The position numbers were made by a program, and so were the translations under genes. This document shows positions 25,301 to 52,300 of a DNA stretch of 64,000 bases, in pieces; the stretch's first letter is position 1, and every line of letters begins with the position of its first letter. The notes under the pieces were generated by a model. The model worked only from the letters and a program-made list of their open reading frames with translations, did not search any database and was not told where the DNA came from. Source of the DNA: Ascidia mentula. Lineage: Eukaryota > Chordata > Ascidiacea > Phlebobranchia > Ascidiidae. The stretch lies in assembly GCA_947561715.1 (NCBI GenBank), contig OX387201.1:3056001-3120000 (forward strand), in the 5' to 3' direction.

Positions 25301-28300
25301 GATTACAAGCGATGTACATCCTTGAAAGTTGTCGTGGCGTTTCAAATGCAAACGCACGACTTTGATAAGTAATTTCTATAGCATAGGCCCTGAACACTTT
25401 TGAACCTTATGCACTACATTGTCGCACTGATTTTTGCTGACCGTATGTTTTCACTTGTAGGTTGCACTCCTCTCCACGTTGCTTCCCATCACGGAAATAT
25501 AAAGGTGGCCAACTATCTTCTGTCACTCGACGCGAAAGTGAACGCCAAGACCAAGGTGAATGTCATGTCAATAAATAGTAGTCGTATTTCTGAGAACAAG
25601 AAGGTTGGCCCATATCACAGAAAAAAAAGTACTCGTTTTTCAGCAAGTAGATTAAACTCCATAATGTAAACTCTTTCAAGCATTCTGTGAAAGGATTTTT
25701 TGCACTTCAATTGCATAAACGAAGAGATCTGTAGCAGTGTGCAAACGTTTTTTCTTCACAACCAGACATTAAAGGGCCAATCATACTACATAAGCAGTCA
25801 TGTCACTTGTGTACAAATTCGTTTCCCCAAAAATTGCAACCCATGCTCTTACCCAATGTTAACGAGGCCTCACACACACATACAGCCATTAAGTGCAGGA
25901 TTCCATGTACCCGTTGATCCAAAACCGGTCCGTTTACCACAAAAATGTCTCCACAAAAGCCAGTGGTAAACAGATCCTCCTTAACTTGCGGTGTTTTTCG
26001 CACAGAACGGCTACACACCACTGCACCAGGCTTCACAGCAAGGGCACACACATGTTGTTAACTTGCTCATCAAGTTCGGAGCTTCTCCAAATGAGCTGAC
26101 AAACGTAAGTACCACGTTATTAACGTATGTCAAGAATATATTTTTGTTGATCAGCGGTTAGTGCAGCTGTGTACGGCGTTTGTGTTGATTGTTTTGGTTT
26201 ATTTGCGAATGTTGGTAGTTTTCGTGAATGGATATCGGAAAAGAATCGTAAGTCGTAATGTTTGATTTCGAAATTTACTTGATTTGTATTGTCAAGGCGC
26301 AGAAAGATTAAGACTGCTATTAAAAGTAGAAACCCTCACTACCAAATACGTGCTAAACCGAACTTTTGCAGAAATAGCGTATTGCTTGCAAATATTTTTA
26401 ACGCGTCTGAACACCTTATTGGGTATAGGTTGAGTGTTCTGTGATAATTCTTACGTCGGCCCTCAATTTCTTGCATTCATTCATTTACCCCCAATTTGCG
26501 AAACGTTTGGAAACCAGTATTGTGTTAAAAGAATCATCATCGACAGCGATATTGGCAGAGAAGCTTAAACGTTTAAAAAATTTTTTAACCAAACGTTTTG
26601 TGGTGCAGAGTGGCAACACGGCTCTATCGCTCGCCAAGCGTCTGGGCTACATCTCTGTCGTTGATACCCTCAAAACGATCACCACTGAAACAACCACAAC
26701 GGTAAGATAAATGTTGAACGTTTCCTGCAATCCTGTATTTCAGGCAGGGCGCTCTTTGGACAATGATAATTTTTGATTTTTTTGTAAACAATTATTGTTA
26801 AGCTGCAGACAGATGGCCACTGTTTCGACCTAAAACTATTGTGAAGTTTGCAATGCGCAAACTCTTGCATAGCAAAAGGATCTGCGAAAATATGAATATA
26901 AATGAAAATTTACAATATTTTACCATGCCTAATTATGCCACAAACAACATTTTATGTGGATTTAAATTCTCCTCCTTCATATTATTTGTGGCTTGATTTG
27001 ACTTGGCTATGTTTTCATGTCATTGCCGTCTCATTCTATCCTTAAAAATGATGGTTCACAAAAACCTCACAAACGAAAACGAAAGATCTCGTTTACAACT
27101 AGTCATATGAAAACGGCAACCATCTGCTGTATATCGTAAAGGCTTGACACAGTTTAGCGCACGCAGCGTTTAACATTGCGTAGGTAGCGCTTATACGGGC
27201 TTACCACTGACAACTATCCCGTCCACATGTACAGGTTACAGAGGAGAAGAAAAAACTGAACATCCCTGAGACTGTGAACGAAGGATTTATGTCTGAAGCA
27301 AGCGACGACGAAGGTATTTAACCCACTTTCAGTTTAAGATTCCAGCGTACGTAACGAGTCGCCTCAGGGCTAAGGATTGTGTGCTAACTCAATTTTGTTG
27401 GTATTTTATTTTGGTGTGCGTTTGTGAGCACCCGACGGCTTGCTTGCGTTAGTAATGCTGGTAAACAAAACGCACGAACGGTTTTGCTGCTCAGAGGGAG
27501 TTAAGAGATAAGATTGTGGCCGCTGCTGCCTTTACGAGAGACAATTTTTGTAATAGCCGTAATGGTAATTCAGGCGTTTGTTAAATGACAGAAGATTCGC
27601 ACCTGTTCTATAATGAGAAAAGTGTAGAAATCCGAACGAATCCTGGAATCTTTCAAATGTTTTTGTCAATTGTGGTAGAACACACAATCTGTATCACAGA
27701 CGACGCATGTTATTGCATTTTTCGCTCTTGCGCAATCCAGAAAGTGTTTCTTCAACCCAGTTTGTCTTTAAACACTTTGCTTTCCAACTAATGTCCAGTT
27801 ACACGATCACCAGTGGTGCCACAGTTTTCTTGTTTGCTGGGACAAGACTCGCTTGTTTGTCGAACATTATCCCGCCGCTTGTAGGGAGTTCGTTTACAAC
27901 AGACGCCGAATCATAAATCAAACTTTTTCTTTTGAACGGGGCAGAAGTCTTGTGGCTTCTTAAATTCCATTCGGCTGTATGAGTAACGCTTGCTTAGGCC
28001 GATTTGGTTTTGCCAGTCGTCGAGTCGATGTTCGGTTAAGTTTGTGAATGGTGATTTTTTTTGTCCTTCTGTTACAATGTAAAAGCTTGTCTTCTCAGAA
28101 ATGGGCCTTAATGGTTTCAAAGTTTTGTAACAAAATTGTAGCTAACCGCTAAATTTTGTACAATAAAATAGCTGTAAGAACTAGTGAGCTTTTTCCAGTA
28201 TGCAGTGCGGCGTTTGGACATGTACATAAAAATGCATTTAAAACCAGCAACATATTTGAACAGTTCCAGATCAGGGTTGTAGTTAAATTATAAAATTTAT

Positions 28301-31300
28301 CAAAGGAGACGAAAGTATGGTTGGTGGAGGATTCCTGACGAATAATGAGATGAAGGAATTGGGCGACGACAGCATTGTGCCAACGGAAGCATCGTTGTTC
28401 GCCGTTCAGCAGTAAGCTCTAACCACATATAGAGAAATTAGTAAAATATAAACGCAATTTGTTTTAACGACGCTCATATTGAGAACATGTAGTTGTATGA
28501 TGTGGTGTTTCAAAGAATAACTTTACAGTGTCTTATGTATTGATCTAAATGAATATACAATCTTGTCAAGTCAGTCGAAATTTTTAGTAATAATTTTGCA
28601 TGCATATTTTCGCGTGTAGAGATTCCAAGTATTCGACTCTGGAAGCTTTGGCCGGTTACGGAGCTCGCAGACCGTCCTGGTCGTCATCAGCCACCAATGA
28701 AAGTGACAACATCAAGTCGCCCAGGAGCCCACGTTGCAACGGGTGAGACGTAACTATCATTAACATGAATAGCGTTGTAAAGGTGGCAAAGCGTAAAAGG
28801 TTAACATCGAGTAATGTTACAATTAAAACATATCCGTAAATTTGTGGCAGTCTGTTATTAACTGCAGTTTTTAATTCTGCTTTTACTCAACACTGAGGTA
28901 AATTATTGTTGATTTTAATATGTTTTTATTTGCGTTACAGCTTTCTTGTTTCGTTCATGGTGGACGCTAGAGGCGGTAAAGTGCGCGGAACACGTCACTA
29001 CGATCTACGTATAGTGGTGCCCCCGAAGGCTTGTCGGGCCCCAACCCGTGTTACGTGCAGGTTTGCTCGTCGGCGACACACAGCGGCCATCACAGCTACC
29101 AACAATCCGTCACTATTTGACGCTGAAGGCAACGCTGCTCGGGTTTTGGAAGTTGGTCCGAGGGGGGCTTCTTTTCTTGAGTAAGTGGGATTGATTTTGT
29201 TGTAAATAGTGCGAGCAGGGCTTTTTATCAATTCGGTGTTGCGCCTTACGGGTTATGGCTCGTCAGTTTACTTGGAGTAGAGAAGTTATGTGCCATGAAG
29301 TGTCAACACTCCAAACCACGAAATGGGACTATCCCTTTGGGTGTTTCCCTGATTTTCACTCATGAATGAGCGTTCCCGTCACTTACTTGCCCTATTTCCT
29401 TTCTGCAGCCAACAACATAACCCCGCACGCTTTCCGCCCTTTACGGAGGGCGAAGGTTTGGCGGCCAGAGTGATACAGTTCGGACCAAAGGCGTGTCGCT
29501 TCTTAGGGTAAATCGTCGCGTTATGACGTGTGTTGTGGTGAGCGTGACGTCAGGTGCCGTGCTGATCAATCAGCTGCCGTAATTTGTGATTCTCATGTGT
29601 GTTTGTCCTTCAGTAGTTCGTCCTCCGATGTGTTGTTTTGTGGTGTTTGTGTGCTAGGTTACATTCCGGTGCAATCAAATTACGTTTTAAGTAAGCGAAG
29701 TCATTGAAATTTGACTGTTTCTCAAAACAATGGTGATGTTATCAATAAATTGTTGACTGTGACTTTTCATCCTTCGTAATTTGCGATCACCCAAGGTTAC
29801 GAATTCGACGAGAAACATCTTCTCGACGAAACCTTCCAATTTCCATCCACAAAAATCTTTATAATATCTATTTTCCGAACTGTATTTCCGCCAATTTGTT
29901 TCTGACCTAATCTCGTTGATATTTTAGGCCAGTGGCGATCGAGATACCGCATTTCGCCAGCCTAAAGAATAACAACCGCCAGATCGTTGTGATGAGGAGT
30001 AATGACGGGAGCAATTGGAAGGAGCACAAGTGGCCGTGCACCGACCAACAGTTTTGCAAGCAGAACATCGATGAAGGTACCTCTCGTGGCAGCTTGTGTC
30101 TTTTATTGAGTAGAACGCTTCCTCGAACTCTCCTATTTTTGAGAATAAAGAAAATGGTCCATAGCGCTGAAAACATTGACATGTTTTATTTATTTAGGAC
30201 GTTATGTCAAAACCTTACACCATCGTCAGTTTAAAAGTGGAGTGGTTGGTCGAGCTCCACAGTTAGATAGAGCTGACCTGACTAAAAAACATTTTTGTGT
30301 TATTTATTGTCGACAGAATTACTTGTAACGTCAAAAACTGCTGCAGTATGTAAGACAAAAGTTTTCTGTCACAAATTTCATCCGAAATATTGGATGCAGA
30401 TCTACAGCCTGCGGAAAAGCTCGCCGAGCGTCGCATCTTCCGCATCATCACATCCGATCTTCCCCGCTTCTTTGCTCTCGTATCTCGGCCACTAGAGGAC
30501 GCCAAGTCGATCGGTTCGTCAGGAGGAGAGCTGACGTCATCGGTTGTGAAGGATGCCAGAGCGAAGTTTCCAGAAGGTTCTCTCACGAAGAAGATTAACG
30601 TTGCGATGCAGGTTGGTCGAATGTTGTTAACAGTAAATGTCTGGAAAGGTTGAGATACTTAGGATGAGTGAATATATAGTATGTTCGTGTCCGCATAACT
30701 ATAAACACACAATGGTCTTCTGCAATATAATCACCACCGCTCCTGGAAGTGATTTTAAATTATAAAGATTTCATACTTAGTTTTGATGCTGGTTTAAATC
30801 TTGGAACTGTTCATTTTATGGCTACAGTCACATGCTTAACTGAAGCGTTACCGAATGTGTGTGTGTGTTTTGATCAAACTGTTCAGCAAGACAAAAAAAT
30901 ACCTGCTCTTTATTTTGTAAGCAGTCTTTTAGAAACGAACGCAAAATAAGCACATGAAAGCAAAAACTAGTGCCATAATGCAGAAGTCCATAATTTGTAG
31001 GTGATGCCGATCACTCCCGAGATGTGCAAGAGGGCAGTTGGTGGGAAAGCTAAAGCGAGCATCATCTTAACAATCGAACCGAGAAGAAGAAAATTCCACA
31101 AACCCATTCAACTCACAGTTCCATTACCAGGTTGGTTAAACGATTTTTACTGCTTTTCTTACTTCAGGAATCCAAAAATGTTTTATTAAGATTTACAGTC
31201 GCGAAAAAATGGACTTAAAAAAAACACAAAAACAACAAATTGCGTTTTTTTACAGAGGGAACTGACAAAAAGGATTACCTGAGCACAGTTGAGGATTCCA

Positions 31301-34300
31301 CTCTGAGGCTGCTATGCAGTATTTCCGGTTAGTATGCCAACATACTTGAAACTGCAAGTTACTGTGGTAGTTTTTAACGGTAGTTGTTTGTGTTGAAATT
31401 CAGGCGAAGATAATCCTGCGCAATGGGAAGACATTACAGGTTCGACTCCACTCAATTTCCTGGATAACTTCGTCACTTTCACCTCTACAGTATCGGCCAG
31501 GTGCAGTAACAGTTTTTATGAAAATTATTTGAAGATGGCGACTTTTGAAATTTCAATTAAAAATAGACCTTGGTTGAAGTCTCTCTTTAGCCAAAATGTG
31601 ATAATCACTACGTTACAAACAAACCACAAAACTGTTTAATACCAGGTTTGTAATAAAGGCGAGTTTTTTTGAATAAGAAAATCTTCTGAAAAAATTTATT
31701 CCGTATGCCCCAATAACTTACAACTTATAACTTAAACGATTGCAAGTGATCAAATACCAAAAAGCCAAACTTTAATTAAGCTCCTGGAATAAACTCTTAC
31801 ATAAACAACACTGTTGGCAGGTTTTGGTTGATCGATTGCCGCCAACCATCCGAATCTTCAACCCTTGCCCATCAGATTTACGCCGAAGCCACGCGCGTAC
31901 CTTACATGGCCAAATTCCTCGTGTTCGGCAAATCTCACGACCCCCTGGAAGCCAGGCTGAGGGTTTTTTGTCTCACTGAGGACAAGTATGAACATTTCTT
32001 TGAAACTTAATATTGTTGTGAAGTTTTGGAATTACTAAAACGATTGATGAAATATTTATCAGTTTGGGTAAAGTATGTGGGAGCGTCATGTTATCAAAAT
32101 CCAATGTTGCTAAATTTTTGGTTGAGAATAAAACGATACTTTCGTATTATATGATTTTGGACCTACAATGTTTATCAAGTAAATTTTATGGAATTCCACT
32201 GTAGACACAGTATTTTGTTTTGTGGTACTGTTAATCGCAACATACCTTACCTTCTGCCAAAATTAACCAAGACGAAACGTTGGTAAAGTGTTTTGTTATT
32301 TTGTCATCAAAATTGCCAAATTTTAGTCTGTTTTTCCGTTCATACAAGGTACGAGAAGACGCTGGAAAAGCAGGAGAATTACGTGGAGATTGCAAGGAGC
32401 AAAGATGTGGAGGTTTGCGAAGGAAGCAAGATCTGTATTGAGTGCTCCGGGAACCTTTCGGCACCGATAAAATCAGGACAAGTTCACAATTTCCAGTTCA
32501 CCGCATTCAACGAAAATAGGATTCAAATTCTTGCCAAGGTAAAGCTCACTAAAGTCCTGGGTTCGTTTTGATTGTTTCTGACTCTGGTCATGGATTTTTA
32601 CAGATATTAAACCCGGCCAGGATTTTGACGCGTCAGAATAACTATGACATTTTTTGGGTCGTTTACAAAAACTCGTATTCTGCATTTGTGGTCAGAAATT
32701 CCTATTAAACGATTCCGGGAATCACTCCCCATTCCAGCATTATAATCATAACGATTTTCCATTTTATTTTAAAATTTTTTTTACCCTGAGAAAGCCTAGC
32801 TGGATAGCAGGCGAAACGTCGGTGAATACAAGTTACGTTTTAATGTGCCAGAAGAACAGACTATTAAAACTCAATATATTAGTACCTCGTGTGTCGGTCA
32901 ACAGACTACTAAAAAATAAATTTCCTTGCAGCAACAACAAATATAACGATTTTCACTTATTTTTTTTACCACATTTATGGAAACATGTATTTCCGAAGTT
33001 AAAAGTTAAAGAACATAAACGATTTCACATTCAACCTGATGTTTTTCCGCCAGGTCCGGGATTCGATCCAAGAACCTTGCGGTCGTCTCACTTTCACCCG
33101 CCAACCATTAGGGCCCCCGAAGAGTCACGGCGCTCGAAAAACTCTCTGCAATCTGAATGTTAGACTGCCACCTTGTGATCGGGTAAGTATCCACATGTTA
33201 TCCGGTAGCGGAAAAGTTTTGTTGTAACTGTGATGCTGATTTGCAGTTAATAAAAGCATTAACCACTAAACAACTTTTGGACGCTTAACACTTTTTTAAA
33301 ATTTAACAGATTTCTTGTGACATGGAAATCTTAAACTATATGGTGTGATTTTGTATCTAACAGTTTATGTGTCTGTGAAGTTAATACAAAATATGCGCTA
33401 TTAATTTATCTGCACTTTATTGTAACTGTAGCTGTGTAGGCACGGTACACACATACACTCCAAGTCACTCTGCATGGCGCTCGCCCTAATTTTTCAACAA
33501 ACTTGCTTTAAAGCTTATGAAGGTGTTAATTTGTTTTGCGCTGCATAGGATTCCGATTCTGAGGACGACGTGTGCATGCAATATGAGGTAATACTTCTTC
33601 TAAACACTAACACCTCTCACATGTCTATATTACACAAATATTCACTTTTGCAACGAATTTTAGTAACGGTATTGATGTGTTAGATTAAATTTTCTTTTTT
33701 TTTGTCTTATTATACTTTAAGTGTTAATTGCTTTTAGAAATGATCTGCTTGCGTACGATATGATCCATTAAAGGCACATCGAAATTTATACTTGACCGCA
33801 TTTGCATTTTTTAAGTGGAAACCTAAAAATGCGCTTAATTTATCATTAAATTATTTCCACCTTCTCCAAATTCCACAATGGAATAGAACCACATAAACGA
33901 ATGCATTCAAGCATGTCCAATGTCGATTCACTGTTACGTCGAGCAAGACAACATTCGAAAATTCCATTTTATTTTTTTGTGTGTCTTTCGCTATAAAAAG
34001 TATCTTGCAATAGAAATCTGTGTCGCAAACTCCGGAAGAGGAAGCGAGCGAGGCGAGGAAGAGGTATTTCTTGGTGGATCCCGCATCCGGTGAGAAATAG
34101 TCGCGACTAGTTTATAATGTCGGTTTACGTGGTCATTGTTGGGCCAGTTATGTACCAATACACCGCATTGGGTACCCCAACGTTTTTCTTTAAATCGGGG
34201 ATTCTTAATCTTTATTGTTCTGCGACCTCATTATAAAAGAAAAATTTTATGCGAACCCCATATTAAAAAAATAGTTTTCTGTACAAACCCATTTTGAAAC

Positions 34301-37300
34301 TGTTTTCTACGTGACCCCAGATAAACAACTAAAAGTGTGAAATACGAAATTGTCCCCACAAAAGCCAAAAAACGACTTATAGTTTTGAGGAGCCCTGGTT
34401 CAAACCACTTTAAAGGTGGTGTCAGCAAAGTTGTACCCAATAGTGGCCACCAAATCCGGCATTAACACTTCACCTTATTTAAAACAATAGAATATGAGTT
34501 GAATTACCCACTTGTTTTTATCCGGCGCTCTCTATTTTTTTCTTGCACGCTGCGTTCGGATAAATTAACCTTCCAGTGGACGCCAGCGCTCCGGACGAGA
34601 GCTCGCCTGAAGAGATAGCTCGCGATATGGGTGACGTCATAAATAAATTAAACCAAGTCCAGATTATTTTACAACCCCATGCCGAAGCCCAGGCATCTGC
34701 AACGAAACACAGTGGAGTCGAAATAGTGGAAGATATTGACGTGGGGGTCGAGGAGACCGCACAGGTGGTCACAGAGGTCCGGAATCGACTGGTGGAGATG
34801 AAGCAACTGCTGGAGTCGGAAGAGGTCAAGTCCGATAGCTATTTTGACCTGTATTCAGTTGAACCTGCGCGGGTTGAAAGTGGAGAGAATTCGGGCCATG
34901 TTGGGGAGCGCCTTGACCGCACTTCCCACGTATTCGAGCGCAACGTGGAACACGCTGAGACATCGGAGCTGAGCGAACTCCACGGGCGGGCTTATAGGGG
35001 CGCGACAGCAGTCGAGGAAATCAACGCCAACTTTGAAGTCCTGGCCCAGACCATCGACGCCGACATGCAAAACAGGGGCCAAGACGTTCTTTCGGTAAAA
35101 TTTGAGGAAAAGCTGGAAACCGCCCAGGACACTATCAGAGTAGCTTCAACTGACGTCACACCTTGCCTCGAGCCCAGTATTACATTAAGCCCCGAATCGC
35201 TGACACAGAGCAGTGACACATTTATAGACCACGAGCAAGAACAGGAGGGTTTGATCGATTATCTCGAAGCTGACTTGAACGAGAACTTTGCTCCGTTACC
35301 GAAGCCGAGGTCATCTAGACCTGCCACAGTATGCGAAACTGTCGTAGTGGACGAGGTGAAAAACACAGGCATTGCGCAAACATTACGGGACATAGAGAGC
35401 AACGAAGAGTTGTGTATGTTACTGGCAGACGACCTTGAATCTCAAAGTAACTCCTCCAATACGGTGATAACAAACGCTGTAAGATCCCAACCCGTTGTTG
35501 AGGACAAAGTTTTTCTGGTGGTGAGGAAGACCGAGTCGCAGCCGGAGCTTCTTCAAGTTTCTTCCATGAAACGTTCTCTTAGTGCAAGCTCGGATCAGAT
35601 GAAGATGGTTCGCTTCCACGAGAGTGTGACCGTGATCCACGCTGACAAATCATACGACCTTTGTTCTCTTAACCGAGAACGCTCCTCCGATTCCGAGGAA
35701 GATGAGTCCGAAATCTCTGACACTGACTCTGCATCGTTCTCGCCCCAGAGCTCGGACGCGGAGGACTCTGTCGTATCGGAGGATCAGGAACATCCAAAGA
35801 CACTTCAGGAGCGGATCACAGCGTACCGAGCGGCTAGCAGCGAACTTCAGCGTGAGCTTGAGAGATTTAGGAGGAACAACCCTCGTTATTCTGATCAGAG
35901 GGCGTATCTTCCTCCGAAAACGACGCCACCTGAGCCAAGTAGCTCCATAGATGCGAGCGCCCGGTCTGCACCGGAGGCTCCTTTGATGAATGACGCCGGA
36001 GGAGAAAGCAGCAGTGAAGACGAGGATGAGATCTCTCCTGTCATCCTGGAAGAGACTCATACAGTAAAAGAGCTTCTGAAAACGTGGGAACAAAAACCTC
36101 TGATGAACATGTCTCCAATCAGGAGGACCTCCAGCACAGAGGAACCAAAAACATCTTCTGATCCTGATGGAGCTCAGATGCTCTCCCGTTACCCTCAGGT
36201 AGAGATCGAAGTTGCGCAGCCTTCCACTATCAGCGAACTTTCCGAATCCTGTGATTCTATTCAACTTTTGGTTGATGAGGAGTGGGTTCCGGAGCTTGTT
36301 GTAGACGCAGAATCTGCTCAGCAAGAGATCCTGGTCAAGGAGCAACATTCGGGTGATGAAGAGACAGCAGAAATACGATCTGTCAGGGATCATGCACAGG
36401 AAGAAGATAAAACAGTGGAAGTTATGTTGCAGGACTTGGAGCATGTTGAAGAAAGTACAACTGTATGCGAGGACCGACAATTTATTGCAGGGGAGTATGA
36501 AGTGTCCGTCGCGGAAAATGTGGAAGTTTCTCCAAGTTTTGTTAAAGGAACCGGTGTAAGTTTGGACCATGTTTCCAGTGGTAAGAGCGACCTAGAAATA
36601 GAGGAATGCAAAACATTCGGGTATAGTTCAGAGGCAACTGCCCGTGATACATCCGAACTGGTTCTTGGTGGTACTGGTTCCCAAGTGACTGAAACCAATA
36701 CATTTAATTTTGAAACATCTGCGATAACTCCAGAAAACAGGGATAGTGACGAGGTGGTTGTTGCCAGAATTCAACCTGAAACCTTTCTTGCTTCTTCAAC
36801 TCAACTTCACACGGAATCGAATAAACTTGAAACAAAGGATACTGGTGACGTAAGAGACCACCCGATTTCAGCTCAAGTTACCTCGGATCCGACCAACACC
36901 ACAGAAAATGTTGCCATTGGCGTAAATACCAACACGGAACAGAAAAATATCGCTTCCATTGACGTTACAACAGACCAAAGCTACGAACAACAACAGCCAG
37001 ATACCAAGCACGAACCAGATGAAGACAATATCAATATTTTTCATGCCGAGGCAATATTTGAGGAAATTGGTTCAGATATTTACCAAGAATATACACGAAG
37101 TAAAGATCAATCTGCCAATAGTAAGCATTCCTTTATAGCCAAGGAAAGTGTAAGCTCATCTGTTGGGGATGATACCAGCCGAAACTTCGATAGCTTTACA
37201 ACTGTTTCACATGTTAGTAACGATTCGACGCCTGCAACCGATCAGGTTGTTACTGACGAGATCACTCATTACACCGCTGACAGCCAACTTGTGCAAGAAT

Positions 37301-40300
37301 CTGAAGAGATTATCGCAAACATGACAAAACGTGACCAAGAAACCCGCGATGTTTACGATGCCGCATTACAGAAGGCAAGCTCAATCGAAGAGGACGTTAT
37401 ACATGATGACAAGACTCTTGTCCAAACATCGGAGGACAAAATGTCACTCAGCTCAAATCAGTACGTGGTGGTAGATGGCAACGCTTCGTCTCAATCCTCC
37501 AACGTTACAGTGATTGTTTCAAGATGTACTGAGGATCGGTTGGACGAAATCGCCAGAGGTGAGTACAGATCTTATGAACAACCGGAACCGGCGGATGTCG
37601 TCACATTTTCTGCAAACGATAAACAGATAGCGGAAAACACAATAGTTGAACACGAAGACGAAACCCGCGAAACACAAGAGCATCCCGAAGAGGCAGTGGA
37701 TAATGAACTTGAAACTCGTCCCAAAGAACAGGTCTCCGACGTTGTTGTCGTTGAGCATACGGAGGAGACGGCTAAAGACGTTGATGGTCTCTGTAGGTCG
37801 CCCGATATGTTTGGCATGAAAGACGCTGATGGTGAGAAGAAGTCGATTTTCAAATGCCAGGATAGTCTGGAAGATACCGATGTCCACCAAGAAGAAAGAA
37901 TCGACACAGACGCTGATGCCGATAGCTTGGATCGATCAGGTTTCAATACTCCGGTTCGAGATACGACACAGTTGACAGAAGAGAGTACAACGTTTGTTCT
38001 TAAAGAATCAGATCACATAATTAGGAATGTATCTGATGACGAAGACAGTCTTGAGCGGCCCGCTACCTCAGACATTAATATTGTCGATGAGAACTTCATA
38101 GATCAAGTTGTGAGTAATGCGGTTTCATGTGGTGTTGTGGCTCCTGCATACGAACCAACCAACATGAAAGATTCTGCAGTTGTTGACAGTCGGGGTGAAA
38201 GTCACGATGTAAATGGTGAGGAATTTGTCAATCGTTTGCAAGCCGCTGAAGAGCGTTTGACAACAGGTGGCGAATCTGAAGATCTCGGCAGTGTCAAGAC
38301 ACAACTTGACTCTGAAGCCGAAACTAAAACCGATTACAAAACTCAACATGTTATTGCACAGAATTTTGCAAAACACGAAGAGTCTGTTTTCTGTAGTAGT
38401 AAGACAGAATTGGATGATTCTGTTTCTGTGTTAATGCCAATTCCTGATGGTAGAGTGTTTGCGGTAGAAGAACGCCAGACGGAAGTAACTGACTCGTACA
38501 AACCATACGACACAACTCTTCCCACGGAAGAATACAAAACAACTAAAACTAACACGGAAAGTTATTCAATCGATGACGTCAGTGATAAAAAGACTACCTG
38601 CGTGGAAATTTTCGAACCAACAACTCCTCAGGACGTTGATTATCCCGAAAGTATCAGAGAGGAATTTAATACGTTGTATGATGTTGCAAGCTACGACCCG
38701 TCAACTACTAACAGCGTGATACATGAGAAGACTTCTTCGGAAGGGCAAGGTGTTGTTGGCCTCACAGAGCAAAGTTTCGGCAAACCACCAGACACGAATG
38801 AAAACGAACTTGATGCGCAACTTGAGGGATCAAATGAACGGGAAACAAACTGTACTCGTGACACCAGTGGCGTTGGAGACGATCTAATCTCACACCAAGT
38901 TACGTCGGAACCGACCGGGGAGATCCATACTGCAGAGACTGTCGCGATTGTTGTAAATACCAACACGGAACAGACAAATGCCGGTTCCACCAACGCAAAA
39001 ACTGATGAAGAAATTGTCAAGTGCTATGTTGTTGACGACAGTTTGGTTTCAACCGAACAAGAAAACCTTGTTTCCCGACAAGTTGAAGCTGATGATGTGC
39101 ACATACAGAAGGAGGCATTTTTAAAATGTTTAGACGAGGCAGCTGATGAAAGCTCAAATACAACTGCAGTGACTATCTCATCTGATAAACCTGACTCCAA
39201 AGATGTTGAAGTCGTGGATGTGGGTTTGGGCGAAACCCAAGGAAACGCGGCTTTAAGACAGAGCAGCACGAGAGACCTTACCGGTGCTGAAGAAAACACT
39301 GTCCCAGAACTTGAAAGACCAGAACAGAAACACTACTTTGCCGATGTATTTGAAACGCAGTCGTCCAAAGCAGTGAAAGAAAATGGCCAAATGGATGTCG
39401 ACATCAAGCAGAGGGAATTCCCCCAACGACCGTCTGAAGACAAAACCAAGTTAAGACAGATGAGTGATTATGTGCATGAGTCTGCCAGAGTAATTGATTC
39501 ACAGGTGGTTTCTTCGAAACCTGAAAGTGATGAAACATTTTCTGTAATTATTGTTACGAAGGGTGAAGCTATGACCACAGAAACCATAATTATTGAAAAC
39601 CAGAAACTGGTTGACGATTTGGAATCGGGAAGTCCACAAGATGTTGAATGCGAGCAGGAAATCATTGATGTTTCCTCAGAAGATTCTGCAACAGAAGAAA
39701 CGAGTGCTCATCAAGCGGAAAATGTCCCCAGGGCCACTGGCGATCGTCTACCAGATGAACTTAAGTCTTCAGAAGATGTAGCCAGGAAATATGAAAATCT
39801 AATCTGGGAAGAAGCAGACCTTGCTCTACACGATCAAGTCGAGTTGGAAGATTCAAAGGAAACTTTAGGGGATGTATCGTTTTCGGTTGATGAAAAATAT
39901 CAGGATCATCTCGAAGATTCCGGTGTCTCGAATGTACTAATTTACGAAGAAAATGAATTGTTTTCCGAAGTATCGGAAGACGAATCTGTGGAAAACATCT
40001 CAAATATAGGGGTCACTGTTGAACACCTTGCTGGGGAAAATCTACAGGGGTATGCCAAAGGTACGTTGAGCGATGATAATGCCATTGACGCAAAACAAAC
40101 CTCTGCCATCGATGTGGAATCCTCAGCAGGCCAAGAAAGTGTACAAAATAAAACGGAATCGAACGAAGCCGAGGCAACGGATCAAGTCGCTTGTCGTCAA
40201 CCTGAAACTGATGAATTTAGTTTAGATCAATCGAAGGTTGAAATGCACGAAGAAGCGAGTGTAGTTGATTCTCAGCAAATGTTTTCTACAGAATTTGAAA

Positions 40301-43300
40301 GCGCTAAAACATATTCTGTAATTAATATTACGAAGGATGACAATAATGCTTTCTTGGAGCAAGAAGAGCAAGGAGAAAGTTTAGCACAAACGAATTTTGA
40401 AACTGTTGAAAGCGAAAAACTGGCTAATGACTTTGGTGTTGTTGCTCCGGAATGTACTCACGGGAATAGTGTGCAAACCTCCGAAGCCCAAGTCGTAGAT
40501 GTTTCTTTGACAGATTCAATAATAGAAAAAACACCTGCACAAGAAGGCGAAACTGGCTCGCAGGTCACTGGTTATGGGCGCCAATCGGATGAGGAAGGTG
40601 AAGCTAATGTATCCATGGATCATATCAGTGAAGAAGACCTTGCTGTGCAACAAGAAGTCAGACCGAAAGAATCCAATGATTACCGCCTCGAAATTGGTAC
40701 GACTGTCGCGGATGAATCGTTACCGGTTGGTGAAAATCTCGAACACGTTGAAGATTCTGCTGTCTCGAATGTAAAACTTTACGATGAAGTTGAATTGCTT
40801 TCCGAAGTATTGGGAGATGAATCTGTAGATAACATCCCCAAAATCGGGGCCACTGCTGAACATCTTGCTAAAGTAAGTGCACAGGGGGATGTAAAAGGTA
40901 CGTTAAGCGATGCTGATACGATTGACGCAAAACAAATCTCTGCCATCGATATGAAATCCTCAGAAAGTATTCACACCGAAACTGACCTAAACGAAGTTGA
41001 CGTAACGGATCAAGTCGCTTGCCATCAACCTGAATTAACTGATGAAACCAGTTTAGAACATTTGAAGGTTGAAATGCACGAAGCAGTGGGTGTAGTGGAT
41101 TCACAACAAATGTTTTCTTCAGAATTTGAAAGCGCCATAACAGCTTCTGGATTTATTGGTACAAAGGATGACACTAATGCCTTCTCGGAGCAAGAACAGC
41201 AAAGGGAAAGTTTGGCACAGACAAATTTTAAAACTGCTGAAAGCGAGGAACTGGTTGATGACTTTGCTTTGACCGGTCCGGAATGTACTCCTGAAGTGCA
41301 AGTCGTAGACGTTTCTTTAAAAGAATTAACAATAGAAGAAACGCACGCTCAAGAAGGTGAAACCGACCCACAGGTCACTGATGGTGGGCGCCAATTGGAT
41401 GAATGCATTTCACTGGAAGGTGGAGTCAAAACATCCATGGATGAGACCACGAAGCACAAAGACATACGAGAAGAATCAAATGAATACAAGCTCGAAATTG
41501 CTGAGACCACCGGGGTTAATTCCTTACCAGTTGGTGAAACTGTCGAACAGCTTGAAGATTCTCGTGTCGCGAATATAATACTCTATGAAGAAAATGAATT
41601 ATACTGCGAAGTGTCGGACGATGAATTCGCAGAAAACGTTTCCAAAATGACTGCACACCATGCCAGAGAAGATCTAAACGGCGATTTCAAAGGTTCGTCA
41701 AGCGATGGAATTCCATCTCTACCCGAACAAAGCTCTACCACCCACACAGAATCCGCTGAAGCCCAAGAAAGTTTTCCCACAGAAACTGACGTTCACGAAG
41801 CCGAGGATACGGATGAAGTTGTTGAAAAATTGTTCGAAATGGAGAAATTTCAAGACGAAAGTACACCCCGCACTGTGGAATATCTTCCCGGAGTTCCAAC
41901 TACATTTACTGACACAGAAACCGATTTAATTGTACACGATCTCAAATATCACGACACTCCAACTGTAGATCCTTCAAAACATGTCACAGTCGCATCCCTC
42001 GAAGCTTCAGACTTTAACTCTGAATCTAGGATAGAACAGAACTCATCACCACTCAACGAAACGGACATTTCACCGCAACAAACCGAGGTCGAATTATGTC
42101 AATATGTTGCTCCCATGCAAACTACCAGTAAATTGGGATATTCGAGTGACGAAAAATTAATTGTCGATAGCTCAGCAACGGAAGGACAAGAAGATATCAT
42201 CCTGTCCCGTAAGGATAAACAAAATGCACAGCTATATACCAGTGAACCTTACCAAAGGGAAACACTCACTGAACAAACGATTAACGAAGACAGAACTCAA
42301 CAACAAAACAATGAGGAAAGTGTGCGAAATGACGACACAAGTGTTGCCGTGACAACTGTGGAAGGCAATCTTGTTGACGTCGGTTGTTCCGACCAAACCG
42401 TTACACAAATCTGTGATATTCCTGGTGAAAGTGAAGACATTCCCACTGTTATCAAGGAAGAGTTTAGAATGGAAGAAAAAGAAGAGAGTCTTGATGATAG
42501 TTTCGTTGGAAGTTCACAGGGTAACGAAACTCAGTTTAAGGTTGTCCGTTCATCTGATGTTAAAACAACGGAGATCGTTGAAAATGCTGTTAGTTCTGCT
42601 GGGTTGGAGGATTCTCTTTATAAACCGTACTCAAATGATATCATTTTAACGGAAAATGTTGAAACCATCGTTGAAACGCAGGAACAAATTACTTTGGAAT
42701 TTAATCTGGAAGAAGAATCCTGTTATGGCGCGACCTCTGGGGATGAAACAATTAACGAACAACAATTTGTGAATGACGAAATGAACACAAACGCAACTGA
42801 AGAGCAAAGTTACGTGCAAAAGGCGAGGGATGATGTAACCAGTGATGATAATTACGTGCAAAAGGCGAGGGGTGACGTTACAAACCTTCACGTAACACGT
42901 GGGGAAATCGATTTGGTTGATTTCGGAAATGAAGAGCAAATAGTTTTACAAGTAAGAGCCGAACACCAGGAATTTCATATCAGCGGTATGGAACAATCGT
43001 GTGAATCTGCTCACAAAAGGTTCGAGGACGAGGATTGCCGCTGTAGTATTGACGATGTCGCAGCACAAACTAAACAGGATGGTTGGTCCCAAGACGAATC
43101 GGAAACAGAAGCCGATGCCACTCCATTTGACGCAGACTTGTTGCATACTTCAGGTGAAAAAGAAGATTTTATTTTACCGGAGGTTCAAACTCACAAGGAA
43201 CCGATGGACGAATTTAGCGTCAAAGAAGTTTTGGTTCACAAAGAAAGCACCGAAAGCCTGGAATACATTTCATCCTCTATCCAACCTAATACATCTGAGA

Positions 43301-46300
43301 CTGATTTCGTTTCGTCGACGAAAGTGGATGGACTGAGGCAGGGGCAAGTTGAGATGAAGGAAATCCGTTCCTCTGCTGAATTGGAAACGGATAGTAGTGC
43401 CGAAGATGTCGTACCTACATTGAGGAGAGAACCGAATCAGGTTCATGTAGACGTTGGATACTTGCACCGTAGGGAAAGCGTTAAACACGGCCTGACAAGT
43501 CTCGAGCAAACCCAGATGAGCTTCGACTCAGTGGCGCAACAACAGCAAAGTGTCGGCTCCGCTCTTAAACGACTTTCCTCAGTGTCGAGCGGTTCTTTCG
43601 TTGACTCCGAAGACGAAGAAGCCGAAACTAAGATGGCTACTGTGCTCCTAGAAGCGGATGAAGATGTTGGTGCCTCATCTTTCACCGCTATTCTCGAATA
43701 TTCAAGTCAGCTGAGTGGGGAAATAGTCGACTGCACCTTTAGGTCGCCAGAGATTGAATCCCAAACAGAAGTTCGGCGGATTTCGTGCGACCGGGATATT
43801 CCAGGGCAGGAATCAACTTCCATCCTTGTTGCGGAAGATACGCAAGTTGTTCTAGGCGACTCTCAAGTGGAGTTTAACGCCAGCACAGAACAAGTGCAAG
43901 GGAAGGAAAATGGAACTATCGACGATGGTCTTGAACCTGATGATGTGATAAAACGTGAGGTGGTAACTGTGGAAACAGATTTGAAAAATGTAAAGGATGA
44001 GTTGTCTGTCATGGTTTTCACCGACGAATGCACCATCGCTGATCCACCTTCGGTATCAGAAATAGAAACGGCAAAAACTCCTCGTAACACACCCGAAGAC
44101 CGAAATGAGATTGATTCGTTTGTAACTTCCAAAGAAAATCCGTTCGCGCAGGAGGAGCACGAGTCATTGATCACCCAAGACGATGATCCAGATTACATCT
44201 CCTGCATGTATGTCACCGACAGCATTCAGCATGACTCGTCGGTGGGAGGAGCCGATTCGTTGGCAAAAGAACTCGCCGACGCCTATTACGACGAAATCGT
44301 TGAACTTGAGAATCGCAATCTCGCTCAAGAATATGATGACGTACCCCGTGATGACGTCATGCGGCGGGATATACCGGACTCGGAGTTTGTATTAAACAGC
44401 GAACATGCCAACGAGGTGGATTTCGACGAAACGAATGACGCCTGGAATCAAAATGAAGCTGAAACATCTGTCGATGACGTCACAACTTTCGACGTCACAC
44501 GTCAAAATGAAAACCTGGAGTTTGGTTTAACTTCAGATTTCATCCACCAAGATATCGAAGAACCAGCTGAGCATAATATAGAAGAGAACATTGCATCTTT
44601 GGTGGACATGGAATACTCCTCTGTATTGAAAGAAGCGGAGATAGAAGCGGAGGCCATCGAACGGGCCATGCTCTCACCCAGCATCGGGGAATTACATCAT
44701 GCTCCTGGCAGCAGTTGTGACGACTTGACATTGCCAGCCAACGCTGAAGGGGGTGGAATTTTATCCTTCAGCATGTCACACAGCTCAGAATTCAAGCAGA
44801 AAGATTCGCCTGGAACTGACCTCCGAGAATCTGACGTTACAATACAGACCTTTAAAGTAGTGGAAAGCAGTAAGGATTCGAATTCTGCCAATGGTAAAAC
44901 TACTTTGGATTCCATAATTCTCACCGAAGAAAGTTCACTTTTCCGCGAATTCTCTGATGTTCCGAATCCATCAGCTCCCGAAATTCACGTTTCGTTTCAT
45001 CACGATCCGGTCATGGTGGTAAAAACCAGCGACAGCGGACTAGTAGACTTTAAACAAGCCGAAATGATTGACCTTGATGACGTGGAAAAGGAATCCGACA
45101 GTTGTAAGGCCTCGAGCGAGTCTTTGGATTCCGACTCGGAACGTTCCAGTGAAGCAAGCGAGATTTATGATTCCAAAATCACTTGTTCCAAAATAGTCGC
45201 GTCGGAATCGACAGAGCCACTCGTGCTTTCAGACGTCATTCAGGAGCACGTGGGTGATGCAGGGTACTTAGAAGCCCACTCCGTACATGCTGCGTCGTCT
45301 TTGACTTTGCCAGCAGTTTGTCAGTCCATCTCAACGCAAGAATTCTCAACTTTCGTGGAGGAACGTGCTTCCGGCTCACCCGAAGAGTGCGTAGAAGCAG
45401 ACGTAAGCGAGAAAAATACTGATGTTGCTGATCATCCCATGGAGCATTGGCAGGAGGAAAGGGTAGTTGAAACTCATGCTGCTTTGATGCGGGTAATATC
45501 ACAACCCTTGGAAGTGAAAACGGACGTGGACTACAGTTTATCTGATAATGAAACTGATGCTTACGCTCAATGGAGTCAAACTCATTTGTCGACCACCAGC
45601 AACATCCAAGACCTCCATGAGCGACCAAAATCTCCTCTTCCTATCCGTGATGAGAGTTTGGATTTGCACAAGGAAAGAAGATCTGATGCGGAAACCTTCT
45701 CTTCCATGGACGTTGGCTTGCCTTCCCTTCGCCTCTCGGTGGAGGACGATTTATCCTCTCTGCACGTGGATTCGGCTGGTGACACGTCTGCTAACGACGA
45801 GTTCTCTTACCGCAATTACCCGGGAGGTATTCGGTCATTTGATTCAACAGCCACCTCACAGCAATTCAACTCTTCCGAGTTCTTCATGTCGGAAGAGATG
45901 TCCTCAACCACCAAGCTGTATGTGGACCGTGAGGATTTTGTTGATCCGAGTATGAAGGAGGAGGTGGAAGAGGATCAGCAAGACCCATCTTCCATCTTTA
46001 CTGCGCACGGGGAGATGACGTACATGGAGGCGTCCACGTCATCAAAGTCTCCTAATACCAGCTATATGTCGATGACGTCACCCACTGGGGAGGTAGGGTC
46101 CTCTAGTTATTGCGTGAGGGATGATGAATTCTTAACGAGTGTTGCACTTGAGGATGTTCTGTTACCAAGCAACCTCGGCCGACAGCCTGTTGATGAGGAT
46201 GTTAGAATAGCCATGGTCGAAGAAGTAGAGGAGTCCGAGGCATTGATGACTTTCGCGGAGAAGTTTTCCCGATTCAAAGAGTCCATTGAAGGAGGATCTT

Positions 46301-49300
46301 CGCATACGGAGAGCGAGGAACGAATCGAAGTCCGGATACCGGAACAGGAGCAAGGGAGCGAATACATCGAGATCATGGACACAAAACAGGCTCGAGCAGA
46401 GGCTCTGAGATTGGAGGACCTCTCCTACATGGCAGTCGCATACAGGGATGCAGCCAAACAGCCAGTATGTGAAGAAGGAAATCAATTCTCCGACTCGTCA
46501 AGAAGCAGCGACCGATCCCCGGATTCTGAATCATCTGAAAATATTGAAATGGACAGCGTCGACACCAACCAGTGTAGATTCGTTTACGAACAGGATGATG
46601 ACGAAGACCGTCCGCTTTTGAGAGAAGACACGTTTTCGGATGACGGGGATGAAGGTCAGGGACTTCTTAAACAAGACAGTCAAGAGACTTATGAAGAGTT
46701 TAAGGCAACAAAAGAGACACCTAGACTTCTTCACTCAACGCCAAAAACCAGCAGGATTCCTGTGGCTAAACGATCGCCAATTGCTTCTGAAACGAAGCCC
46801 ACGCCAGCCACGAGGAAGTCTGGAATACCGACCGCAAAGCAGTCAGCAAGACTCTCTCAATCCTTACCATCGAAGGGAAGGCAGCAGCATATTTCCCGAA
46901 AAACAGCCGAGTCTCGAAAAACGCTTCGAAAAGAGACTACATCCATCATGAGATCCACATCCGCGTCTAAACTGCCCGTACATAAACCAAGTGGTTTTGT
47001 CACGAAATCCTCACATGTGGGCAAACAAATAAAGACAGAAGTTCCACTCAGTCCGGGATCAACTATTTCAACTGCGTCGCGTTCTTCGTCGGGAAGCTCC
47101 TTCTCTTCTTTCCGCTTCAGGAAGAGTGGGGATAGTTCTCCTACCCAGGAAGGCAGCATATTTCGAAACGAAGCGTTCACAAGTAGAACGCTGAGCTCCG
47201 ACAAATACATTGCACTGCGACAGGGAGTCTTCACCTACAAGATGTCCCCGGCCGAGGAGAAAGAGAAGCGGAAGAAGAAGAGGGAGAGAGCGACCACTGC
47301 TTCATCCACTGATAGCTCCCCTTTAACTGCGAGCGAAGAGCTGGACCGAAATACAGGGATACCCAGACCTAGGCGACTTCTTCACCAATCGTCTGCACCT
47401 TATGCCTGCGAACCAACCGAACAAGTAAAACAAAATGAGGCGGATCATTTTTTAGCTGATAGCCTGGGTCTTGGTGGAGTTTTAACTACCCGCGGGGGCT
47501 CAGGCGCTCATAGCCTCGTTTCCGAATCCACGCGCACTGTGTTCTCACTCTCAACGAGCAGCGTGATCACCTCCAGCTGCGTGGAAGCAGTTTCAACATC
47601 GGATGATGACAAACCCTTGCAATCGGAGGAAGCCAAACGTTTCTCAAACTTCGAGAGAGCTCTGGCTGAGTTGCAGGGCGGTGACAACAACCATACGTCA
47701 GCACAACATTTTTCACGTAACGAAACAGTTACCACCAGTTTTAGCTCGTCTAACGTCATCATAGATGACGCATACGGTGATGACGCAAGTGACTCCAGCA
47801 CTGTTTTATCGCCCGGACTAACTATCAGCAGCTGCCGTTCTGTGATCCGGGAAGTTGAAGAGGAGGCGGACACTCTTTCCATCACCCCAGATCTGGAGAG
47901 CTCTCCCACGCAGGAGAACGCACCATTACCGGAAGATCTGATTGGAGAGCTTCCAGATTCGCTCGATGCATCGACATCGTTGTCTGATCCTCCCTCCTGT
48001 ATTAAACCGGCCGATGATCTTTTCCACCAAACTGATATAACATTCTGCGATTCTGCCTCCGATATCACGCACCATGACAAATCTCTGACGAACGATGAGC
48101 CTCGTCGAAGTGACGTCACTCCCAGTTCGTATTACTCGATGTCGGTGTTGTGACGTCGTAATCACATCACCTCGTCATTCGTCGTGTATGTGTTTTAGCG
48201 AGCGGTGTTGCTTGTCCTACTTCTCGTTGTCCGATGTTTGGGGGCATAGTCACGTGCTTGCTTACGTCAGGGCGGCAGGCGAAGCAGAACGTTGCGTATT
48301 ATGGAGAAATTTGAATTATTTTTAATTCAAAAAGTTTTGGTAACCTTTTTTTCGAGTATGTTACTTTGCAGTAAAAAATATATGTCACGCGTTATGTTGT
48401 AAATACCTGTTGAGGAGTTTTATGTTGTCATTACGTCAACACATGTGTGACGTACGTCTTGGTGTTGTTCCAATCCGTTTTGTTTCGCACTGCCTTCTTT
48501 AACATAGAGGCCGTAGCGAAGTTTTCTCATAACTTCTTAACCGCAAGCTTGATGTGTTTAGGCGGAAATAACATAAAGTATTTGGTAGATGTTACATTAC
48601 AATGTTTAACGGTTGTTGTAAACCAAAAACCTTCACATGAACATTTGTTAATTTAACTATGTCTGTATAGCTTGCGTCATTATTTTAAAACGTTTCATAC
48701 TTTTTTACGATTCCACAACGAAACTAAAACCAATTTCACAAACCCGATGTCCACTATAAAAAATTAAGTATGTGTTTTCTCATCTCAGGTAAATCAAGTC
48801 CTGAAGTTTTGGAGCAAAAGCACCGCGAGGTGGCGTCCCAGCTCGGTATCCAGTGGCCGGCACTTGCTGGCGCCCTCGGGTTGGGCCCGGATGACGTGTG
48901 GAGGGTGCAACGCGACGCCGACGGTTCCACTCCTGGTGACCAGAGTAAGATGATGCTGTCGTTGTGGCTCTCGAAACAAACCGAAGATGAAAAAGGTAAA
49001 AGTCTTGTTGTGGAGAAATTTATAACGAAACGTTGACCTCTTACTATTGGTTGTACCTGGAGATAGTTTGGTAATTTTTCTTGATTGTGTCAAAATTTTC
49101 TCAATTAAACATGTCCCTTTATTTGTATTGATAGCAAAAATTTTAGTATTACTGATTAACACTGTCATTGTGCATAAGGTTGTACATTCCAAGGTGTTAC
49201 TGTTGCTTTGCTGTGATATAAATTTGTAATGCGACCTTTTGAATGTGGATAACCTTGTTTTCTTGTGAAACCAATATTTCTGTACCAACCTCCACTGTAG

Positions 49301-52300
49301 ATTCATAAAAAATGCCTTGGTAATTACAAAAACGTCTAATATTGCAGAAGATGCAGACTCATGTCTCAGTGATGCTCTAAGGAAAATCGGAAGAGATGAC
49401 CTTTGCCCTATTTTAGATGACCCTGTCTTTCACTACGGGGTCATTGACCCTTCCATGAACGTGGATAAGGACGACCAGGATACTTCGGGTATGCTAAACT
49501 TGTTCCGACTAATATCCTTAATACATCGTCCATGTAAATCTTTAAGCTTGAATCGTTTCAACTAAAAACCCTCCTAATCTGTTCTTTAGCTTTCCAAGCC
49601 TTGTCCCACGAGCTTGGGTCACCCTTCACTGCACACGGTCACGTGAGTTCGCCTTACCCATTCCCGGCTCCTTCAAAGTTGGCAATGGATTCGTCGACCC
49701 CTACGTCAGCCCTCAAAGTACGTTTTGGTCGTTGTTAATACGTTTTTGTTTATAATATCCATCTTATTCTGTGGAATAAACACTCGATATTCGGTGTCTT
49801 AACAATGTCCAATTATTTTATTACGAAGGCGAGAAACGAAACGCTTACTGACGGCGACACCTCGCTGATCGTGGCGCCCCCTAGCGCCGCTGATGAAGAT
49901 GATGACGTAGACAAACCACACTTTCATTACGTCGTGGATGACAGTGAGTCATTTTACAGAAAGTATTCGCAGAATGGAGAAAAATTCAAACCGATCATGT
50001 TTTTCTTTGCAGCAGATGAAGTAGACGCCTCAGCTCAGCAAGTAGAGAAAGCGTGAGTTCGAGTTGACTTTGTACCGAATACTCTATCTCGGTCACGTGA
50101 CCTTAACGTTGTACTTTTGTTTACAGGCGGGAAAGTCCATCCGAATCATCGGACAGCGACGAAGAGGGGAAAACACCTGCACGGGATGTCCCGGAAAGTA
50201 AAGATGAAGAAGCTGGTAAGCAGACGATTGTTGTTGATGCCGCGTTGTGTGTGATTGTCACTATGATTTCATTGATTAATTGTGAATATAGTTGTCTATT
50301 AATCAAGAAGGTACGTTGACAAGTAAGACACCTGTCAAGCTATTTTACTTGCTTCCGCTAGATGGTGTGCTTCTTATTACTTTTAATTTAAAACTTTTTT
50401 GCGTAATTGAGTTTTATAGTTTTCAACAAAACCTCTGTTTTCAACAGACAAAGTGGAAAGTGGACATGACAGTGACGACGAAGTTGAATCGAAGGTAGAT
50501 TTTGTAGCTCACAATAGGTTGTATGTTTGCTAAGAGAGGTGCTCCTTTCGAATCGTTTACCCATATCTATTTATAAATGCAATAGAGGTGCGTGTTACAC
50601 ACTGCTATTCATTGTATGCAAATGTTGGGCTGACGTGACGTTTAAACCTTGGTTCTTTCCTTTTATAACAGGAGAAATTAGAGAGGGAAATAGCGCCACA
50701 AAGTGGAGATAATTCCAGTGAGAATGGTAACGACAGAGATGTAACTGACGAAGGTATGGTAACTATGTGGTGGAATCTGGTGAACCTTAATTACAACGCA
50801 AGTATTTTTTGTAGCTTGGGAAGTTTTGGAAGTTCCAGATAAGAACGAAGATCCCGAAGAAGACAACGAGTAAGTTTTTGTAGATCTTGACATTTTTTTC
50901 GGAAGTCTTGGCCTTGTTGCAGCCTACTTAACCCATTCTTAATTGGGTCGGAGCGTTTAAGAAAGTAGTAACAATATACACAAGTTCGCTAAAGCAGCAT
51001 CAGTCTGGTAAAATGTGAAAATATGTATCACGCCTCTTGGGCATCGTCAGTTCCTGTGATGTGATTACAACATATTTATAAGTTAAAGTTTTCTACACGT
51101 ATTTATAGTGTATGGCCCGAAGTTGTTAAACTTACGTTGAATCATTACACTCGATGAATTTCCGGTGAATCCTTCAAACCATTTGATTGTACTGTGATGG
51201 ATCGAAAGGTTTTTCTAACACGATTCAATCCATTAGTAATTTAAAAGTGCGATTGTTTAAGAGGAGTGTACGCGGTTTCTGCAAGTGTGACTTGATCTTA
51301 CTTGTATTATTCCCGCAGGATTGCCAACGATGTTGGAAGCACAAGATCCAGAAGTTCTTCGGATTCTTCGTCGTCGGGAAACAGTGCCAAGGATTTTGAA
51401 CCGGCGCAAAATGTAGAAGAACAACAAGGCGAGCAAATATCCATTATTTAATAAACTTCCGCAATGTATGGAAGTGTTGGACGCTAATGCAAGCAAACGT
51501 TTTTACCTTTAAACTGATTTAAAGGAGTAACGCATTTAAAGGGACATGTGTTTGCCTGGTTTAAGCTTCTATATAATTTCATTCATATTACTTTTTTGGC
51601 ATAAACTGATATATTATCTGCGCTGACTTTAAGATAAATATTCCGCGACCCACCTTCGTACCTTAGGCTCTATAATCGTTTTAAGTGTGACGATGGTCAC
51701 TGGTTTGCAGGAACACATTTGGACAATCATTTAAACAAATTTTGTTGCTAATTTTTAGAATCGAAACAAGAGGAAGATGGGGTTAGTCGCCATTCAGAAT
51801 CCTCATCTTCTTCGGAAGACGAAAACGATCCGGATGTTGGGACTGAACAGAAGAAACCGGATGGGGATGAGAATAAGGACGAGGAACAAGAGGAACCCAA
51901 AGTGAATGGGAACAACGAACATGTTGATGTAAGCAGATTGTTCTTGAAAGATTGACTGTCCTTATCACTCACAACTTTTCCCAAACAACACGTTTTTGAG
52001 TTTTTTGTGGTTGTTTTTTACAAAGATACTAAGCTAAGAAAATAACCCAAAAATACGATTTTTTTTTAAACAAAGAAGAATAAACGAGGCAATATGTCCA
52101 CCGTTGGTTTTTACTTGTGAATAAAAAGACTAACTATCTGAACTACGTTTGTATATGATCAGTAATCACTTTATTACATATTTAGTTCTGCACAAAAGCT
52201 ACTGTGCAGAAAACTTTTAAATCATAGCTTTTCCGTTTTGCAGGAAACCGAACCTGAACCTGAAATAGATTATTCTCAATACGAAGAGGAATACGGAGTG

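Follow-up and report, generated by a model that had tools for sequence, protein, structure and literature searches.

This report concerns a single very long exon in an ankyrin gene of the ascidian Ascidia mentula, found in a 64-kb window of assembly GCA_947561715.1 (contig OX387201.1, positions 3,056,001 to 3,120,000, forward strand; coordinates below are those of the window unless another contig is named). The exon is real, and is another tunicate case of the giant ankyrin exon known since 2016. We consider it highly probable that it is alternatively included and is the positional equivalent of the Ciona long exon and of the giant exons of vertebrate ANK2 and ANK3, probably serving a neuronal scaffold. 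We favour this reading because the gene has the canonical domain order and a phase-consistent splice model, and because the exon occupies the same place as a Ciona exon checked by polymerase chain reaction (PCR). It is also favoured by a codon score positive as far as the stop, a characteristic composition, a basic block with SxIP motifs, partner motifs in the same genome and the precedent of vertebrate AnkG. What is added is modest: one more readable exon from a tunicate, with its SxIP block and internal repeats, and a hint, open to test, that its sequence is homologous to that of vertebrate giant exons.

The giant exon and the gene around it

On the + strand, a single frame stays open between 34564 and 48150 (4529 amino acids, aa), closing with a TGA at 48151-48153; the runner-up open frame in the window has 505 aa. 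In 200 base shuffles of the open stretch, the longest open run was at most 206 codons (mean 126), and, judged by composition, 4525 open codons have a log10 probability near −114. A chance frame was rejected on this basis, since shuffled copies never rose above 206 open codons. The wider suggestion of a chance frame, pseudogene or assembly artefact is negligible, being already refuted by length, and the surrounding gene is intact. An antisense open frame of 313 aa (35653-36591, − strand) lies within the exon, has no Pfam match and is probably a shadow of the coding bias.

Entry into the exon is at a good acceptor, ccttccag/TGGACG, at 34576/34577. The preceding exon (34014-34089, 76 nucleotides, nt) ends in a phase-1 donor at 34089 that is compatible with this entry. 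The exon is accordingly placed at 34577..48153 on the + strand with an uncertain 3′ limit, at an in-phase donor (46654, 47788, 48109 or 48124) or, if terminal, at the stop. With an end at 47788, 48109, 48124 or the stop it would measure about 13.2-13.6 kb; with 46654, which scores highest among the in-phase donors of the final 2.1 kb, it would measure 12.1 kb. A first-pass annotation of this DNA had described an uninterrupted exon of about 4525 codons at 34577..48153, and the frame and acceptor bear it out as to length, start and openness; 48153 marks where the reading frame stops and is not a demonstrated exon end.

The splice model has 36 exons upstream of the giant exon and nine downstream, with consistent phases and no stops. 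The upstream exons measure 24-240 nt with a median of 99, and 12 of the 36 are exactly 99 nt long, in agreement with the earlier statement that the other exons are mostly near 100 nt. Twenty-two of them, many of 99 nt and mostly in phase 0, encode the ankyrin-repeat (membrane-binding) domain (16762..26701, + strand; Pfam Ank_2, E 5e-180; Ank in 16 stretches); the model begins at 16762, and the N-terminal exon or exons upstream lie outside it. A further 14 exons (27235..34089, + strand) encode a linker and the ZU5-ZU5-UPA module, the last being the 76-nt exon. Pfam reports ZU5 as one stretch (6.3e-30) and UPA_2 at 1.7e-40, and the alignment to ankyrin-2 (PDB 4d8o) takes in the second ZU5. Downstream, the death domain (DD) is encoded by 48789-48995 and 49348-49488 (+ strand; phase 1 in, phase 1 out; Pfam Death 2.3e-6; PDB 4d8o, 4o6x), followed by acidic C-terminal tail exons (49590..52670, + strand) with tentative boundaries and a likely last exon, 52557-52670, read by eye. 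The ZU5-to-DD product matches ankyrin-2 (4d8o) with an E value of 1.9e-169, and ankyrin-3 and ankyrin-1 chains match too. Ankyrin repeats, ZU5-ZU5, UPA and death domain thus all belong to one gene, with the multi-kilobase exon between UPA and DD. The annotation's assignment of the gene to the ankyrins is upheld by these matches, and its placement of the giant exon after a particular named exon by the splice model.

Composition, the basic block and internal repeats

Serine and glutamate make up 25.0% of the giant exon product, against 12.7% of the ankyrin core, close to the roughly 25% described for long ankyrin exons (PMC5135030). The product is acidic throughout most of its length: 200-aa windows have a median net charge of −29, and the 235 of 4326 that are non-negative all start at aa 3945-4182. 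The only basic block, aa 4041-4280 (46696..47415, + strand), carries SRIP (46750), SGIP (46819), TGIP (47353) and SKLP (46966). All three S/TxIP motifs of the exon, the EB-binding type, sit in this block, an arrangement seen in 0 of 2000 global shuffles and 0 of 2000 shuffles inside 100-aa windows; the strength of this result is somewhat overstated, since the block was chosen after being seen. The exon-wide total of three such motifs is not unusual (P about 0.2).

Smith-Waterman self-alignment (best score 380) revealed a degenerate tandem repeat in three copies of about 240-290 aa each on the + strand, R1 (39502-40311), R2 (40276-41142) and R3 (41107-41862), together covering aa 1643-2429, with 41-54% identity. 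A second related pair, 36817-37158 and 38830-39198 (+ strand), is 37% identical. In total, 38 of 1711 window pairs exceeded 71, the maximum of 600 shuffled pairs. The ratio of nonsynonymous to synonymous differences (pN/pS) between repeat copies is 0.59-0.78 (0.63-0.78 within the R1-R3 set), and wrong-frame readings of the same alignments give 0.73-1.47. The repeats and the second pair show that the exon grew by in-frame duplication. No DNA-level tandem repeats were found in the exon, and blastp of the exon against itself returned none.

Searches of the whole product against PDB and Pfam returned sub-threshold matches only (antibody chains; SUZ, 12.4 bits), and for the first 257 aa of the exon there were weak LOV-domain matches and nothing stronger (E 0.3-1.5). 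An AlphaFold2 prediction for exon aa 2-131 was poor, with three low-confidence helices and a mean pLDDT of 59.

The 3′ end and the splicing alternatives

An in-frame codon score trained on 34578-46500 is positive in all six non-overlapping pieces of 46501-48150 (+0.61, +0.03, +0.19, +0.22, +0.37 and +0.14 bits per codon). It stands at +0.37 for 47791-48109 and drops to −0.47 beyond the stop. The donor at 34089 (phase 1) joins the death-domain exon at 48789 (phase 1) in frame when the giant exon is skipped. With phase 1 at both flanks skipping keeps the frame, as does inclusion if the exon length is a multiple of three; the flanking phases (1 and 1) likewise permit an in-frame join from the giant exon to the death domain, with weak candidate donors.

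Several observations weigh against the favoured reading, or against parts of it. Near the end, the in-phase donors score poorly (0.63 for 47788, −0.31 for 48124 and −1.8 for 48109) by the yardstick of 45 modelled donors, whose leave-one-out scores run from −0.12 to 6.2. The top of the 27 in-phase GTs in 46000-48150 is 46654 (1.72), and its use would drop the SxIP block. The piece 46655-47125 scores just +0.03 bits per codon, so that coding is not supported there by the codon score; it overlaps the basic block, which differs in composition. A generic search for splice sites broke the exon up into 13 pieces, the first starting at 34587 and the last ending at 48124; we attribute this to too low an intron charge in that search, but it means that internal splicing is compatible with the sequence taken alone. 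Ser, Glu, Thr, Asp, Lys and Pro together reach 49.9% (core 35.8%), under the >55% given for long exons in PMC5135030. Finally, pN/pS in the repeats is just mildly below 1, and that of R1-R2 (0.78, bootstrap interval up to 1.03) is no different from its wrong-frame controls (0.73 and 0.83), so any constraint on the repeats is modest.

Two other ways of reading the 3′ region have to be set against an internal, skippable exon. The frame might belong to an alternative last exon, translation stopping at the TGA at 48151 to give a giant isoform that lacks the death domain and C-terminal tail. The frame and its positive codon score do continue to the stop, close to which there is no strong in-phase donor; yet AATAAA and ATTAAA are absent between 48154 and 48790, where AGTAAA (48370) and TATAAA (48755) alone were seen, and PCR in Ciona connected the long exon with DD (PMC5135030). 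We regard a last exon as possible but unlikely. Alternatively, the frame could be coding and yet be divided as a rule into shorter exons by splicing within it (exitrons), as might be read from fair internal donors such as 46092 (4.96, generic weights), the 13-piece split and the near-zero score of 46655-47125. Introns need not preserve 4525 codons without a stop, however, and the other pieces of the last 1.6 kb score positive as coding, which makes habitual internal splicing very improbable. By analogy with Ciona, we take the exon most likely to end at a weak, regulated donor near 48109-48124.

Other giant ankyrin exons and a possible neuronal role

For Ciona, Jegla et al. (2016, PMC5135030) reported that the single ankyrin gene has a frame of 13.4 kb with an exon of 13,344 bp inside it. 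PCR verified how this exon joins the UPA side and DD, and an expressed sequence tag cluster from the frame shows nervous-system expression. The same source lists a mean length of 8103 ± 4850 bp for 30 long ankyrin exons, detects such exons in 23 of 36 bilaterian ankyrins and makes the case for a single bilaterian origin, with a shift of the long exon from after to before DD following the echinoderm split and preceding the tunicate split. The position of the present exon agrees with that chordate placement. Like Ciona intestinalis, A. mentula is a tunicate with, as far as detected, a single ankyrin gene and an exon of >13 kb between UPA and death domain, if the exon does not end at 46654. The sequence differs: six Ciona primers match the window at just 15-18 of 22-26 bases (best, 18/25), so the window is not that Ciona sequence, and its identity with C. 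intestinalis itself is not supported. The repeats of about 240-290 aa are described here for the present exon alone, and the 3′ junction that is PCR-checked in Ciona is only predicted here.

With vertebrate ANK3 (480-kDa AnkG) and ANK2 (440-kDa AnkB) the exon shares its position, its Ser/Glu bias and its SxIP motifs, of which there are three (as S/TxIP) compared with the ten SxIP altered in the AnkG-NN mutant (PMC6839619). Drosophila Ank2 L/XL and C. elegans unc-44 likewise derive a giant neuronal isoform from a long ankyrin exon, but in those genes the exon follows the death domain and here it precedes it. The first-pass annotation had held the exon to be longer than the vertebrate giant exons, comparable only to that of fly Ank2, and informative about the chordate ancestry of giant exons. 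It does exceed the vertebrate lengths given in the annotation. The comparison with fly Ank2 alone is superseded, because the Ciona exon at the same place was reported in 2016, and the ancestry question, to which the exon is relevant, had already been argued from that exon and the 23 of 36 bilaterian ankyrins (PMC5135030). Our literature searches linking ankyrin, 'giant exon' and tunicates found none, nor did searches for text with vertebrate giant-exon peptide strings.

That the host is a tunicate, on which the annotation had made its evolutionary argument depend, is borne out by the assembly (195.8 Mb, 79 contigs). Under the ascidian mitochondrial code, mitochondrial COX1 contains 17 AGA/AGG codons; 16 fall within the stretch aligned to PDB chain 5j4z, and 13 of these 16 stand opposite glycine. 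Two GH6 loci (E 9.2e-6 and 1.1e-4) agree with a tunicate host, GH6 being a tunicate marker among animals. A non-tunicate host was rejected on the COX1 glycine codons and GH6 loci; a mitochondrial code of this AGA/AGG type is described as widespread in tunicates (PMC7047913). The mitochondrial contig is 19,461 bp long. This exceeds the approximately 15 kb usual in tunicates. Domain searches of the genome were run exon by exon, a procedure that could miss an ankyrin copy; among the matches listed there is one ankyrin locus, and both UPA matches fall in the window gene. A second ankyrin was rejected, the ZU5 matches elsewhere (among those listed) being one protein that resembles the ZO-1 type and two other ZU5 genes. 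These two are related to each other, do not resemble ankyrins and lie about 36 kb apart on one contig (C69, about 4.75 and 4.71 Mb).

With a further readable tunicate exon, sequence comparison can address whether the neuronal insert is a single inherited feature. The proposition is that tunicate and vertebrate giant exons are sequence-homologous, with the motifs GLxxYLxxDLN..PLPK, EETxSVxELxK, TP..TSxxNPF and TSR(I/L)PV in the same order and an EB-binding block predating the tunicate-vertebrate split; we judge its prospects evenly balanced. An ordered chain of eight AnkB/AnkG blocks, with mostly provisional letters, reached 14.2, where the highest of 400 local shuffles was 13.2. Taken singly, the blocks were reached in 1 (YLxxDLN), 6 (SxIP), 17 (EETxSV), 28, 42 (TP..TSxxNPF), 108, 158 and 342 of 400 shuffles, and 11.8% of 2000 random block orders equalled the true order. 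When a provisional AnkB stretch was cut into 68 pieces, the best (YLxxDLN) lay above 101 of 101 controls and the next was exceeded by 1 of 101; as a two-paralogue mean YLxxDLN stood at 9/40, with its best place elsewhere in the exon. The letters of two AnkB segments were confirmed by PDB search: that of 6kzj, which we take to be the Ndel1-binding domain, and the LIR helix of 5yir, presumably GABARAP-binding. The letters of the other comparison blocks are mostly provisional and were set down after the exon had been seen. Both confirmed segments count against homology and went undetected in the present exon: shuffles scored as high as the 6kzj segment in 443/2000, 35/40 and 342/400 cases, and as the LIR in 1884/2000 (first 257 aa) and 158/400 (whole exon).

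The tunicate and vertebrate exons could instead have arisen independently in the same place. These two negative tests fit such an origin, as does the statement in PMC5135030 that the Ciona and mouse AnkG long exons have no significant homology. A provisional 167-aa AnkB stretch also found nothing in the genome at E 10 (four candidates scored), an empty result that is uninformative in itself. Set against this are the shared site, in-frame skipping, Ser/Glu bias and SxIP block, and the suggestive collinear chain, with its mostly provisional letters; we consider an independent origin improbable. The short collinear resemblance is a lead, not a result. If it and the SxIP block stand up, a link between axon membrane and microtubules would predate vertebrates and be open to experiment in a simple larval nervous system; if not, the exon confirms the picture of 2016.

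Counterparts of the vertebrate partners (NaV anchor motif, FIGQY and EB1) are encoded in the same genome. A NaV II-III linker exon with VPIAALESD (contig C73:298414-298440) was the one forward match of its pattern, with none in reverse; a control pattern gave none forward and one in reverse. Since the control also matched once, the lone match could be chance, and the identification rests on neighbouring channel exons: a Na_trans_assoc match (3.6e-9) lies just downstream, an Ion_trans match below the cut-off lies downstream as well, and an upstream frame appears to resemble domain II S6. The FIGQY motif of an L1-type adhesion molecule and an EB1 gene are also present. In Ciona the NaV ankyrin-binding motif has the form VPIAAIESDLDN (PMC2597720), and the Ciona NaV1a II-III linker was found at the axon initial segment in rat neurons (PMC8192821), in agreement with the neuronal role proposed below.

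These elements suggest how the gene might work. Skipping of the giant exon, joining 34089 to 48789, would yield an ordinary ankyrin; inclusion would place about 4400-4520 mostly acidic, Ser/Glu-rich residues, grown partly by in-frame internal duplication, between UPA and death domain. The ankyrin repeats of the neuronal form would hold NaV1 (through VPIAALESD) and the L1-type adhesion molecule (through FIGQY), ZU5 would hold spectrin, and the long flexible insert would extend into the cytoplasm, where the basic SxIP block near its end could bind EB1 on microtubules. The proximal-axon membrane would thereby be tied to microtubules, on the model of 480-kDa AnkG, which recruits microtubules via SxIP motifs and EBs (PMC6839619).

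Some minor observations concern the gene and its surroundings. The N-terminal ZU5 segment is encoded twice, by exon A (28941-29180, ending in ASFLE) and by a 99-nt exon B (29409-29507), both ankyrin-2-like; the join from an internal donor of exon A (29060) to exon B stays open, so that two alternative ZU5 versions are possible. A possible alternative last ankyrin exon, read by eye, lies at about 51319-51451; it ends in EQISII and a stop, which an AATAAA overlaps. Beyond the gene, frames at 55602-56816 and 57017-58531 match a DUF294 nucleotidyltransferase (2.6e-10) and TPR repeats (1e-13), and perhaps form one gene.

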